A stretch of 64,000 nt of DNA from Leptotrichia sp. oral taxon 223 (lineage in GTDB: Bacteria > Fusobacteriota > Fusobacteriia > Fusobacteriales > Leptotrichiaceae), in contig NZ_JABXYU010000001.1 in NCBI RefSeq assembly GCF_013394795.1, forward strand, positions 558,001 through 622,000, given 5' to 3'. Each line of letters starts with the position of its first letter. Within the stretch, counting starts at the first letter, position 1. This document shows positions 50,724 through 54,605 of the stretch, in pieces. Made by a program: the position numbers and the translations under genes. A model generated the notes under the pieces. That model worked only from the letters and a program-made list of their open reading frames with translations, was not told where the DNA came from and did no database searches.

Positions 50724-50758
50724 TAAAAAAGAGCTATCTTAACCTTCAAGATAACTCT
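50724..50758 (-). terminator. Terminator after accB
   Basis: On the minus strand AGAGTTATCTT (50758-50748) pairs with AAGATAGCTCT (50740-50730) and is followed by TTTTTTAATA. Confidence 0.9.
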
Positions 50759-50784: not shown

Positions 50785-51201
50785 CTATATTTTTTTCACT
50801 CTAAACAATGGCTGTCCATATTCTACTTTTTGCTCATTGCTTACTAACACTGCTTCTATTTCGCAGTCAAAGTCGCAGTTTATTTCATTCATCAGTTTCA
50901 TTGCTTCTACGATGCAGACTGGCTGCCCTTTTTTCACTGTGTCGCCTACACGCACGAATGCAGGAGTTTCTGGAGAAGCCGCTGAATAGAAAGTTCCTAC
51001 GATTGGTGAAGTGATAAAGCTTTCTTCATCTGGCTCTTCCACAATTTCTGGCTTTCTTTCTATATTTTTTGGAACATTCTGAATTTCTGCATTATTTTCA
51101 CGCTTTAAATTGATTTTTAGATTGCCTTCTTCCACTGTAATTTCCTTAAGCGTTGATTTTTCTATAATTTCTACTAATTTTTCAATTTGTTCTAAATCCA
51201 T
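50785..51201 (-). CDS. accB: Biotin carboxyl carrier protein
   Basis: A 138-residue carrier. The N-terminal helix (DLEQIEKLVEIIEKSTLKEI) is followed by a linker and the biotinyl domain with the target lysine in IVEAMKLMNEINCDFDCEI. The form is that of acetyl-CoA carboxylase BCCP. Unlike most genomes, accC is not adjacent; it sits 106 bases downstream of pxpC in the pxp operon and before a terminator. It may serve the acetyl-CoA carboxylase or a pathway linked to its operon. Confidence 0.93.
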   Translation of the reverse strand: MDLEQIEKLVEIIEKSTLKEITVEEGNLKINLKRENNAEIQNVPKNIERKPEIVEEPDEESFITSPIVGTFYSAASPETPAFVRVGDTVKKGQPVCIVEAMKLMNEINCDFDCEIEAVLVSNEQKVEYGQPLFRVKKI

Positions 51202-51306
51202 TTTAATTTTCCTTTCTGAAAAATATACTCAAATTTTCTTAAAAATCAAACTGTAAAAATGATAATTCAAGAGATTGAGCTTAAATAGTCTTAACCTTTG
51301 CAATAA

Positions 51307-52311
51307 TTACTCAAATAACGTCTCAAGCCTTTTGGACACAGCTCTTACATCCAGTACTTCCTTGCAAGGCGCATGAATTTTTTTTCTAAACTGAGTAAAT
51401 TCATTCATTTCTTCAATTAAAAGATTTTGTGCTTCTTCCACGCTGATTGCCTTGAAACGGATTTTGTGATCTGCTTTTCTTTGTACTAACTTTGGCAAAT
51501 CCACCGTTGCGACTGTCGCTATTTTTGGATACCCGCCTGTTGTCTGCCTATCTGCCAGCAAAATAATCGGCTTTCCGTGTGCAGGAACCTGTATCGCTCC
51601 CAATGCTATTCCGTCCGATATTATGTCAGCCGACTCTTTATGGGCAATATAAGGCCCTTCTATTCGGCATCCCATTCTGTCAAAGTCATTTGTGATCGTA
51701 AATTCGCTGTTTAAAAAAGTTTCCTTTCCTTCTTTTGTAAACAGATTATCTTGTGGCCCCATTATTACACGGATTACTTCATCTTCCTGATTAAATTCAT
51801 CCAAGTCGAGGGTTCTTGATAAAAAATAAGGCAAGTATCGGCGTCTTATCCTAAAGGAAATATAATCCCCCTCTTTCAAATTACGTCCCTTAAATCCGCC
51901 AATTCCACATTTCATATTTGTAGAACGGCTTCCCATTATTACAGGAATATTTAAATAGCACGAAAAAGCTATATAACCCCGCACTCCTGTCCTTGATCCC
52001 TGAAATTCCAGCACATCCCCTTTATTAATATAAATCGCTGTATACATTGGAGCAGGCTTCTTGTTAATTAGCGGCTGAAAATCACCACCTGTTATTGCAA
52101 TTATTGTTTCGCTCGTAAATTCAAGCGTCGGTCCAATCATTGTAAATTCAAGCACAGCCTCGTTTTCAGGATTGTCAATAAGCATATTTGCGATTTTAAA
52201 GGAACGCACATCCATAACTCCAGACGTCCCAAAACCTTGACTTTGGTACCCTGTTCTCCCAATATCCTGAACAGTTGTCAAAAGTCCGCCTTTCAAAACT
52301 CTAAAACCCAT
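51307..52311 (-). CDS. pxpC: 5-oxoprolinase subunit C (KipA-like)
   Basis: PxpC works with PxpA and PxpB in ATP-dependent opening of 5-oxoproline to glutamate. The 334 residues start GFRVLKGGLLTTVQDIGRTGYQ and have GTSGVMDVRSFKIANMLIDN, GGFKGRNLKEGD and the C-terminal ADRQTTGGYPKIATV, all typical of the KipA/biotin-dependent carboxyltransferase-like family. It overlaps the pxpB stop by one base, so the two are coupled. Confidence 0.94.
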   Translation of the reverse strand: MGFRVLKGGLLTTVQDIGRTGYQSQGFGTSGVMDVRSFKIANMLIDNPENEAVLEFTMIGPTLEFTSETIIAITGGDFQPLINKKPAPMYTAIYINKGDVLEFQGSRTGVRGYIAFSCYLNIPVIMGSRSTNMKCGIGGFKGRNLKEGDYISFRIRRRYLPYFLSRTLDLDEFNQEDEVIRVIMGPQDNLFTKEGKETFLNSEFTITNDFDRMGCRIEGPYIAHKESADIISDGIALGAIQVPAHGKPIILLADRQTTGGYPKIATVATVDLPKLVQRKADHKIRFKAISVEEAQNLLIEEMNEFTQFRKKIHAPCKEVLDVRAVSKRLETLFE

Positions 52312-53057
52312 TATTTCACCTCCTCAATATGCACGACACACTCGTATTTATCCTCATTTACTTCTTTTTCAATTTTTTCAAATTCTTCTTCTGAAACTGG
52401 CACAAAACGTATATAATCCCCCGCTTCAAACAAAATTGGGTTTTTTCTGTCAGAATCATACGTTTTCACTGGCGTTTTCCCTATTAATTGCCATCCTCCC
52501 GGTGATTCCAGCGGATAAATTCCAGTTTGAGCGCCGCCAATTCCCACACTTCCAGCAGGAATTTTTATTCTCGGATTAGCCAGCCTTGGCGTATGAATCC
52601 TTTCATCAAGTCCGCCCAGATACGAAAATCCCGGCAAGAATCCAAGCATATAAATCAAATAATCTTTTGAACTATGAATTTTTATAACTTCTTCGGTTGA
52701 AATACCTGCATTTTTAGCGACAAATTCCAAGTCCGGCCCGTATTCTCCACCATAACAGACTGGTATTTCATACACCTTTTTAATTTTTGACTTCATGTCC
52801 AAGTTTAATTTCATTATTTTATTCACTCTGTTTAATAATTTCCCATATGTAATAACACGTGGATCATAATGAATAAGAAGTGAACAAAACGCTGGCGTCA
52901 TATCCATCACTCCTTCTATATGCTGTTCCTTCAGCAAATGTGCAAGTGAAGTGATTTTTCCATTAATTTCAGGCGATATAGCTTTTGGGAATTCAATTAA
53001 AATGGCTGAATCCCCTTCAGGAAGTATTTTTACATCTTCCAACTGTTTCCCCGTCAT
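52311..53057 (-). CDS. pxpB: 5-oxoprolinase subunit B (KipI-like)
   Basis: The 248-residue partner of PxpC. Signatures: LPEGDSAILIEFPKAISPEI, GVMDMTPAFCSLLIHYDP, MLGFLPGFSYLGGLDERIHTPR, GGAQTGIYPLESPGGWQLIG and PILFEAGDYIRFVPVSE. In Bacillus the homologue KipI inhibits the sporulation kinase, but the general function is 5-oxoproline catabolism. pxpA (LamB/YcsF) is not in this operon or window. Confidence 0.94.
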   Translation of the reverse strand: MTGKQLEDVKILPEGDSAILIEFPKAISPEINGKITSLAHLLKEQHIEGVMDMTPAFCSLLIHYDPRVITYGKLLNRVNKIMKLNLDMKSKIKKVYEIPVCYGGEYGPDLEFVAKNAGISTEEVIKIHSSKDYLIYMLGFLPGFSYLGGLDERIHTPRLANPRIKIPAGSVGIGGAQTGIYPLESPGGWQLIGKTPVKTYDSDRKNPILFEAGDYIRFVPVSEEEFEKIEKEVNEDKYECVVHIEEVK

Positions 53058-53077
53058 TCTTATACCTTCTTTCTGTC

Positions 53078-54295
53078 TTAACTAAATAATTTTGCTAAAC
53101 TTCCTAATGATACAACTCCCAAGTATGCCGTAATTAACACGACGATTATTCCCAATATCAGCAATACTTTCGGATGTTTGTAATTTTCTCCCATAATTGA
53201 CTTTTTTTGTGAAGCGACTAGACAAATTCCCAAAGTAACCGGTAAAATCAATCCATTTAATGAGCCTGCCAAAATTAACAATGTAGCTGGATTTCCCGCA
53301 ATTGCCATAACAACTGTAGAAACTACGATAAAAGCTATTATTACCCATTTTTCATATTTTTCAATATTTTTATTAAATGTTTTCAAGAAAGATACAGAAG
53401 TATATGCCGCCCCAACGATAGAAGTAATTGCCGCACTTAGCAGAACTAAACCGAAAAATCTATATCCAATTTCTCCAGCTCCTTGACGAAATGCATCTGC
53501 TGCTGGATTTTCAGCCGCCAAAGTTACACCCTTAATTACTACTCCCAACACTGCTAAAAATAATAGAACCCTTACAAGCGTTGCAATTCCTATTCCCATA
53601 ACTGAACTTCTATTTATCTCAGCCAGATTCTCTTCTTTTGTGATTTTTGCATCAATCAATCTATGTGCTCCTGAAAAAGTAATGTATCCTCCAACAGTCC
53701 CACCAAGCAGCGTTAAAATTGCAGGAATTAAGTTTGAAATACTTTCACTTGGCATAAATGTATCTTTAACAGCAAGACCAATTGGCGGCTTTACAATTAA
53801 AATAACGATAAATATTACAATTATCATACATCCACCAAGCACTTTTGTAAGTGTATCCATAGCCTTCGTTGCATTTTTCAACAAAAATATCGCTATTGCA
53901 ATACCGCCGGAAATAAAGTATCCAGCCATTTTAGGAATACCGAGCAAAGCATTAAAACCTAATGCGCCGCCACCAACATTTCCAATATTGAACACAAGTC
54001 CGCCTAATGCCACAAGAAATGCCACAAAATACCCAAGTCCCGGCAATAATTTATTTGCCACATCTTGCCCACGCAGCTCGCTCACACATAAGACGCGCCA
54101 CACATTCAGCTGCACAATCATCGCAAGCAAGACGGACACTAATATTACAAACCCAAAATTTGCCTTCACATCATTCGTAAATTTAGCCGTCTGCACTAAA
54201 AATCCTGGCCCAATAGCGGATGTAGCCATAATAAATGCCGCTCCTATCAGCACACTGCTATTCTTAGCCTTTTTCTCTACACTGTTTTTACCCAT
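53078..54295 (-). CDS. Nramp-superfamily transporter lacking metal-binding signatures
   Basis: A 405-residue protein with 11 predicted helices and the Nramp fold order. The TM1 segment reads ATSAIGPGFLVQTAKFTNDV, where a true Nramp has DPGN. The TM6 segment reads LGGTVGGYITFSGAH, where MPH is expected. Both metal ligands are therefore missing. It resembles YcsG, found with the kip/pxp genes of Bacillus, and leads the operon with pxpB and pxpC. Transport of 5-oxoproline or another organic substrate is a plausible inference. AAAGGTGG precedes the ATG. Confidence 0.88.
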   Translation of the reverse strand: MGKNSVEKKAKNSSVLIGAAFIMATSAIGPGFLVQTAKFTNDVKANFGFVILVSVLLAMIVQLNVWRVLCVSELRGQDVANKLLPGLGYFVAFLVALGGLVFNIGNVGGGALGFNALLGIPKMAGYFISGGIAIAIFLLKNATKAMDTLTKVLGGCMIIVIFIVILIVKPPIGLAVKDTFMPSESISNLIPAILTLLGGTVGGYITFSGAHRLIDAKITKEENLAEINRSSVMGIGIATLVRVLLFLAVLGVVIKGVTLAAENPAADAFRQGAGEIGYRFFGLVLLSAAITSIVGAAYTSVSFLKTFNKNIEKYEKWVIIAFIVVSTVVMAIAGNPATLLILAGSLNGLILPVTLGICLVASQKKSIMGENYKHPKVLLILGIIVVLITAYLGVVSLGSLAKLFS

Positions 54296-54407: not shown

Positions 54408-54436
54408 ATTATAGTATATAAATAATATATTGTCAA
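54408..54436 (-). promoter_or_regulatory. Consensus promoter of the Nramp-like/pxp/accB operon
   Basis: Minus-strand TTGACA (54436-54431), 17-base spacer, TATAAT (54413-54408). A leader of about 105 bases precedes the start codon. Confidence 0.9.
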
Positions 54437-54576: not shown

Positions 54577-54605
54577 TTGACTTTTTATATAACACATGTT
54601 ATATT
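54577..54605 (+). promoter_or_regulatory. Promoter of the FadL-like gene
   Basis: TTGACT (54577-54582), 17-base spacer, TATATT (54600-54605), about 75 bases before the start codon. Confidence 0.85.
54587..54604. promoter_or_regulatory. 18-bp palindromic operator between -35 and -10
   Basis: ATATAACA-CA-TGTTATAT fills the spacer of the FadL-like promoter. The position is ideal for a repressor, and the form is that of TetR- or MarR-family operators. The regulator is not in the window. Confidence 0.6.

Follow-up and report, generated by a model that had tools for sequence, protein, structure and literature searches.

The question raised by the stretch of DNA analysed here (64,000 nucleotides of the Leptotrichia sp. 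oral taxon 223 genome, C1:558001-622000, hereafter the window) is why an operon apparently devoted to 5-oxoproline, encoding an Nramp-fold transporter, PxpB, PxpC and the biotin carboxyl carrier AccB, should have neither pxpA nor the biotin carboxylase gene accC. An earlier note made from the sequence had identified these four genes, and positions and family models confirm them: all lie on the - strand in the order transporter, pxpB, pxpC, accB (Table 1), and no pxpA or accC was found within the window operon. We report that these four genes appear to be the leading part of a module of six for 5-oxoproline utilisation (in order transporter, pxpB, pxpC, accB, accC, pxpA), which a rearrangement would have split between accB and accC, such that accC-pxpA is now situated ~256 kb from the window accB. 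Taking the module, its split and its role in 5-oxoproline utilisation jointly, we give this reading a probability of roughly 75%; the gene set, its order, the split, the common descent with Lachnospiraceae operons, the intact AccB lysine and the intact AccC catalytic residues are established as far as sequence comparison goes.

The two missing genes are found side by side elsewhere in the genome, accC (447 aa) directly upstream of pxpA, and this solves the puzzle: the absence of pxpA, and of an accC to go with accB, that the earlier note described is purely local and due to the splitting of the operon. The pxpA product matches PF03746 (354 bits) and NF003814 (385 bits, cut-off 226), and together with pxpB and pxpC the genome thus encodes a full PxpABC set. 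Moreover, a biotin carboxylase, a biotinylatable carrier and carboxyltransferase (CT)-type PxpB/PxpC are all present, distributed over two loci, and the genome as a whole has one Nramp protein and one CT_A_B protein.

The split is shared within the genus. Among 98 Fusobacteriota genomes, PF02626 was detected in 22 and PF03746 in 19; both pieces are present in 4 of the 13 genomes of the genus of the window and neither in the remaining 9, and either piece was found in 0 of 20 genomes from other genera of the family. In no genus member having both are the pieces contiguous: 38 kb lie between them in G071, and in G072 and G078 they are on different contigs. The content of the transporter-pxpB-pxpC-accB piece and of the accC-pxpA piece is the same in all four, and the flanks of the window piece are alike (83-92% identity over 12-15 kb), so that acquisition and split probably predate these four species. 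A tblastn search with the six proteins for operon remnants in the DNA that follows accB and in that preceding accC gave chance-level matches, the best (E 0.039) being the start of AccC itself. Most other Fusobacteriota pxp loci have the order pxpA-transporter-pxpB-pxpC without accBC, while three genomes (L074, L075 and L077) have pxpA-pxpB-pxpC and a distant transporter gene on the other strand; the pxp loci of G034, G045 and G053 are interrupted by contig ends. A second divided pxp case was observed in G051 (L058, L087) and G052 (L059, L060), where pxpC is on another contig than pxpA-pxpB and there is no module-type accBC. In G016, two identical-scoring copies of pxpC (and pxpA) are present near the ends of a contig of 1,816,688 bases, representing either a duplication or an assembly overlap.

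With respect to the origin of the module, the nearest PxpC relatives in a contig scan (best 80 of 587) are mostly from Lachnospiraceae, with 66-76% identity. The contiguous order transporter-pxpB-pxpC-accB-accC-pxpA is present in 27 loci, that is 25 (L212 included) plus L098 and L104, whose transporters carry an erroneous profile label, NRAMP2, and are 69-73% identical to the window transporter. The window genome has the Lachnospiraceae order, with the break falling precisely at the accB/accC junction. In the PxpC tree (trees were computed by a quick method for a chosen part of the loci, with 71 PxpC and 49 AccC rows) the window protein is placed within a 22-row set of Lachnospiraceae-type operons (support 98) and the Fusobacterium PxpC elsewhere, a grouping which indicates that the six-gene module is horizontally acquired.

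Turning to the role of AccB and AccC, the biotin-accepting lysine is present in 62 of 62 AccB-like proteins adjoining pxpC (61 identified by pattern and that of L131 by eye), and the AccC catalytic residues are kept in 63 of 65 rows, including the module AccC (rows >330 aa, a few of them not pxp-linked). This conservation wherever accB is present counts for carboxylation, and the carboxylation-linked variant that had earlier been called conceivable gains weight from a catalytically intact, dedicated AccC beside pxpA.

A different situation was encountered in Streptococcus sp. 'caviae' (L116) and in an Oscillospiraceae metagenome-assembled genome (L114), where accB is absent and AccC, of 389 or 401 aa, both lacks the glycine-rich B domain of the ATP-grasp fold and has its E/N/R catalytic residues replaced. 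Such accB-less species with a dead AccC were found in 3 of 295 Streptococcaceae genomes (the query's own included, hence two further species) and in 2 of 396 Oscillospiraceae genomes (one further), and all five retain transporter, pxpB, pxpC and pxpA in order. For the dead accC, the ratio of nonsynonymous to synonymous substitution rates (dN/dS) amounts to 0.21-0.25 in comparisons of the streptococcal species and to 0.12 in that of L114 with L245 (dS 2.06, i.e. saturated), compared with 0.02-0.14 for neighbouring genes; by this measure the dead AccC is retained under purifying selection, although less constrained than its neighbours. An assembly error was considered and rejected, since five species have an uninterrupted frame (389, 389, 386, 401 and 348 aa) with dN/dS of 0.12-0.25. 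Whether accB was lost once or twice is answered differently by the two trees: PxpC parts the two accC-only groups, with L212 (intact accBC) as sister to the streptococcal ones (support 100), and AccC unites all five dead proteins (support 96) on long branches. Two other candidates were rejected, L214 as a case of accBC loss (it groups with ordinary accBC-less Bacilli in the PxpC tree) and L127 as an accC-only case (its second CT/AccC cluster is of a different kind, and the locus was left out of the dead-AccC tally). The L127 cluster, directly 3' of an ordinary pxp operon, encodes a 455-aa second PxpC-like protein, AccC, a YcsI relative and a 76-aa biotin-carrier-like protein, possibly another biotin/CT system. 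In L162, the PxpC match resides in a 727-aa open frame and no separate pxpB was found, hence it is probably a PxpB-PxpC fusion.

A C-terminal tail is found almost exclusively in PxpC proteins associated with AccC, live or dead. Its residues P315 and R323 are present in 58 of 60 PxpC of loci with accBC and in all 5 of those with accC only; of the 74 PxpC from accBC-less loci, 73-74 have no residue in columns 330-334 (L127 was dropped from these counts). Since the tail persists in species that have lost accB and have a dead AccC, it would most simply be read as binding AccC; the retained dead AccC and the AccC-linked tail both suggest that AccC is a physical part of the PxpABC assembly. Both features are described as new here, the association of accBC with pxp being already known as gene order. 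In the literature searched, which left subscription papers largely outside its scope, neither a dead AccC nor the PxpC tail was met with in searches aimed at neither by name, and no role of biotin in PxpABC was found.

By analogy with urea amidolyase, the natural hypothesis for how such an assembly might work is that the lactam is carboxylated and then hydrolysed by PxpA, with loss of CO2. PxpB/PxpC would activate 5-oxoproline with ATP and PxpA would open the ring to give glutamate, while AccC, docked via the PxpC tail, and biotinylated AccB would be part of the same assembly; AccBC would then pass a carboxyl group from bicarbonate via biotin to the carboxyltransferase-like site of PxpBC and drive ring opening as in urea amidolyase. 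Delivery of a carboxyl group is, tentatively, the role of AccBC that we consider most likely, only slightly ahead of a structural one, and it is the least certain step. More speculative is the full version, in which PxpABC-AccBC would be a biotin-dependent 5-oxoprolinase: the lactam nitrogen would be carboxylated at the PxpBC site, PxpA would hydrolyse the product and CO2 would be released, and at least five species would have lost the biotin cycle and kept the dead AccC as a structural part held by the PxpC tail. The published view, reviewed in PMC13274462, assumes that PxpB/PxpC phosphorylate 5-oxoproline and that PxpA opens the ring.

Two other explanations for AccB and AccC have to be weighed against carboxylation of 5-oxoproline. 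They could be subunits of an ordinary acetyl-CoA carboxylase (ACC) for fatty acid synthesis, merely co-transcribed with pxp, as PMC11315280 reads the Staphylococcus aureus operon and as the family models, which name both as ACC subunits, would have it. We regard this as highly improbable, given that the genome has a second, separate ACC-type AccC (54% identical to the module AccC) and a second biotinylatable AccB, that module-bearing genomes (G000, G071 and G078) have two AccC and the module-less congeners (G069 and G074) keep only the separate one, and that in the tree the module AccC falls among pxp-linked AccC (20-row set, support 100), apart from the ACC AccC of its own genome; nor did AccB and AccC come out as the fatty-acid ACC subunits of this genome in a comparison covering accB and accC. 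A further AccB-like protein is encoded beside the ACC accC and has MGI where the biotin-accepting lysine (MKL) is expected, the biotinylatable ACC-type AccB being encoded away from it. A structural or regulatory function of AccB/AccC within PxpABC, with PxpBC phosphorylating as in Bacillus subtilis and no carboxyl transfer to 5-oxoproline, is a possibility to be taken seriously, if at less than even odds: five accB-less species retain an intact gene for an AccC that lacks both the ATP-grasp B domain and the E/N/R residues, under the selection indicated by its dN/dS, and these species all keep the PxpC tail. It has to contend with the conserved AccB lysine and AccC residues, which argue that catalysis is under selection where accB exists.

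Several observations weigh against the carboxylation mechanism or parts of the module reading. With accB lost, AccC catalytically dead and PxpABC intact in five species, carboxylation would be dispensable at least there, and since B. subtilis PxpABC is active without AccBC (Niehaus 2017, as quoted in PMC13274462) biotin would not be needed for the chemistry. The cores of PxpA, PxpB and PxpC show no sharp AccBC-linked switch beyond the single positions PxpA 173, PxpB 155 and PxpC 118. As to docking, L145 has accBC and a PxpC without the tail, and the PxpC model is poor (predicted local distance difference test, pLDDT, 64.7; tail <50) and uninformative. Finally, the AccC tree does not support a single origin for the association with AccBC, as in it the Bacilli-class pxp AccC do not join those of Lachnospiraceae; the PxpC tree supports it weakly, the two uniting at 75.

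The transporter constitutes the remaining part of the question. The Nramp metal site is characterised by DPGN in transmembrane helix (TM) 1 and MPH in TM6, as also seen in the DraNramp rows of our alignment. In a profile alignment with solved Nramps these are replaced by GPGF (residues 29-32) and GGY (residues 202-204), as the earlier note had observed; a search of solved-structure sequences with the transporter alone gave no match, but the profile search did. The AlphaFold model (pLDDT 90.6) has helix breaks at H3-27/H30-72 and H186-201/H204-215, corresponding to unwound TM1 and TM6, and adopts the Nramp (LeuT-type) fold (DraNramp 6c3i_B: Z 43.7, root mean square deviation 2.6 over 376 residues, 14% identity), with closer similarity to the B. 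subtilis YcsG model 9a52_A (Z 63.1, 54-55% identity). By homology, and by linkage in one operon with pxpB and pxpC, it belongs to the YcsG/PxpT transporters. Among 104 full-length transporters from pxp-bearing loci (proteins ≤370 aa left out), DPGN or MPH was present in none; TM1 has GPGF in 74, GPAF in 24 and GPGT in 6, and TM6 has GGY in 98 and VPY in 6. These motifs speak against a canonical metal site more than they identify a substrate. We infer that the YcsG/PxpT-type transporter imports 5-oxoproline and not metal; the organic substrate proposed earlier fits the genetics of Corynebacterium glutamicum, where deletion of pxpT abolishes growth on 5-oxoproline and is complemented (PMC13274462). 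Against this import role, B. subtilis YcsG is reported to raise cellular Mn and has been renamed mntG (PMC10448178), so that the transporter could be a Mn2+ importer with a non-canonical site, supplying metal for PxpA or another enzyme. In that study Pspac-ycsG increased the Mn content of cells, the promoter was bound by MntR and a triple mutant mntH mntA ycsG was not obtained (PMC10448178); moreover, the fold matches DraNramp and the protein is the sole Nramp of the genome. With both motifs absent from 104 of 104 pxp-locus transporters and the complemented growth defect in C. glutamicum, we judge a Mn2+ importer unlikely. The earlier note had set a pxpA in a second operon and transport of Mn or Mg against its own reading: the former is what we find, and the latter is disputed through the Mn reported for YcsG (PMC10448178).

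Compared with known systems, the module resembles PxpABC of B. subtilis and Escherichia coli in that all three subunits are encoded in the genome, and the B. subtilis operon in having a YcsG-kind transporter within it (PMC10448178); it differs from PxpABC of these bacteria in its two loci instead of one, the dedicated accB and accC and the PxpC tail. The six-gene operon of S. aureus (pxpB, pxpC, pxpA, accB, accC) has the same five enzymes (PMC11315280), and 24 class-Bacilli loci with pxpB-pxpC-accB-accC-pxpA followed by the transporter resemble it; there the transporter is last and has GPAF, in contrast to the window operon, in which it is first and has GPGF and which is split. The family of the window transporter includes C. 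glutamicum PxpT and B. subtilis YcsG (MntG), with published roles that disagree. Urea carboxylase/urea amidolyase likewise combines a biotin carboxylase, PxpC/PxpB-related carboxyltransferase domains and a biotin carrier; unlike in urea amidolyase, the chains here are separate and PxpA stands in for allophanate hydrolase, and carboxylation is proposed from the genes. MntH-type Nramps share the fold and differ in the low identity (14-16%) and the replaced metal-binding motifs.

Regarding the window operon itself, the promoter and the terminator-like hairpin around the four genes make them look like a complete transcription unit. Overall, the scan yielded no more sites than were obtained from shuffled sequences; the same promoter is present in three congener loci (L068, L070 and L072), and a similar hairpin in L070 and L072 but not in L068. 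The closest solved structures of PxpB are PH0987 (2phc) and E. coli YbgJ (5dud_B), while PxpC matches E. coli YbgK (5dud_A) at 3.7e-48 and is below the NF045499 equivalog cut-off (233.6 vs 500). The G+C content of the four genes is 37.5% compared with 32.2% for the window. Upstream of the transporter gene, before a divergent outer-membrane protein gene, there is a possible operator, an imperfect palindrome of 18 bp (ATATAACACATGTTATAT); similar sequences are present upstream in L068 and L072, and not in L070.

Table 1. Positions of features in the window (plain numbers), on genome contigs (C) and in extracted loci (L)
Feature	Position	Strand	Remarks
Transporter, YcsG/PxpT-type, Nramp-fold, predicted 5-oxoproline importer	53078..54295	-	405 aa; PF01566 Nramp 3.1e-27
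pxpB (CT_C_D)	52311..53057	-	PF02682 8.5e-78; TIGR00370 230.6 bits, cut-off 145.6
pxpC (CT_A_B)	51307..52311	-	PF02626 6.2e-89, 298.5 bits; C-terminal tail ~ residues 312-334
accB, biotin carboxyl carrier	50785..51201	-	Motif EAMKLMNE; PF00364 4.3e-20; TIGR00531 BCCP (biotin carboxyl carrier protein) 139.3 bits, cut-off 115.2
Sigma-70-type promoter	54408..54436	-	TTGACA-17-TATAAT, 12/12 consensus; upstream of transporter operon
Intrinsic-terminator-like hairpin	50730..50758	-	Directly 3' of accB; operon end
Palindrome, possible operator	54587-54604		18 bp, imperfect
Module accC	L002:5612-6955		
pxpA	C1:867079-867795; L002:7068-7838		
Separate ACC-type accC	C1:1740242-1741570		
Separate biotinylatable accB	C1:1008566-1008787; L066:4561-5049		
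AccB-like protein with MGI	L065:5692-6093; G000:C1 ~1741691-1742092		
Dead accC, L114	L114:9037-10242		
Dead accC, L116	L116:9048-10217		
Dead accC, L241	L241:5659-6828		
Dead accC, L242	L242:6183-7343		
Dead accC, L245	L245:6666-7712		
Second CT/AccC cluster, L127	L127:8979-12900		
Probable PxpB-PxpC fusion, L162	L162:6086 onward		
Two pxpC copies, G016	G016:C1:16806-17591; 1801869-1802654		

Taken as a split module, the apparently incomplete operon is explained, and it becomes questionable whether pxp-linked accB/accC should be read as genes of fatty acid synthesis (PMC11315280). The transporter touches a live contradiction within one family, between the Mn role in B. subtilis and the 5-oxoproline role in C. 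glutamicum, and the accB-less systems with a dead AccC, together with the candidate AccC-docking tail, offer a way to test what AccBC does in 5-oxoproline metabolism. If the biotin-dependent mechanism were true, the system would be a lactam counterpart of urea amidolyase, and the at least five species of Streptococcaceae and Oscillospiraceae would document, in nature, the change of a biotin enzyme into a phosphorylation-only one.

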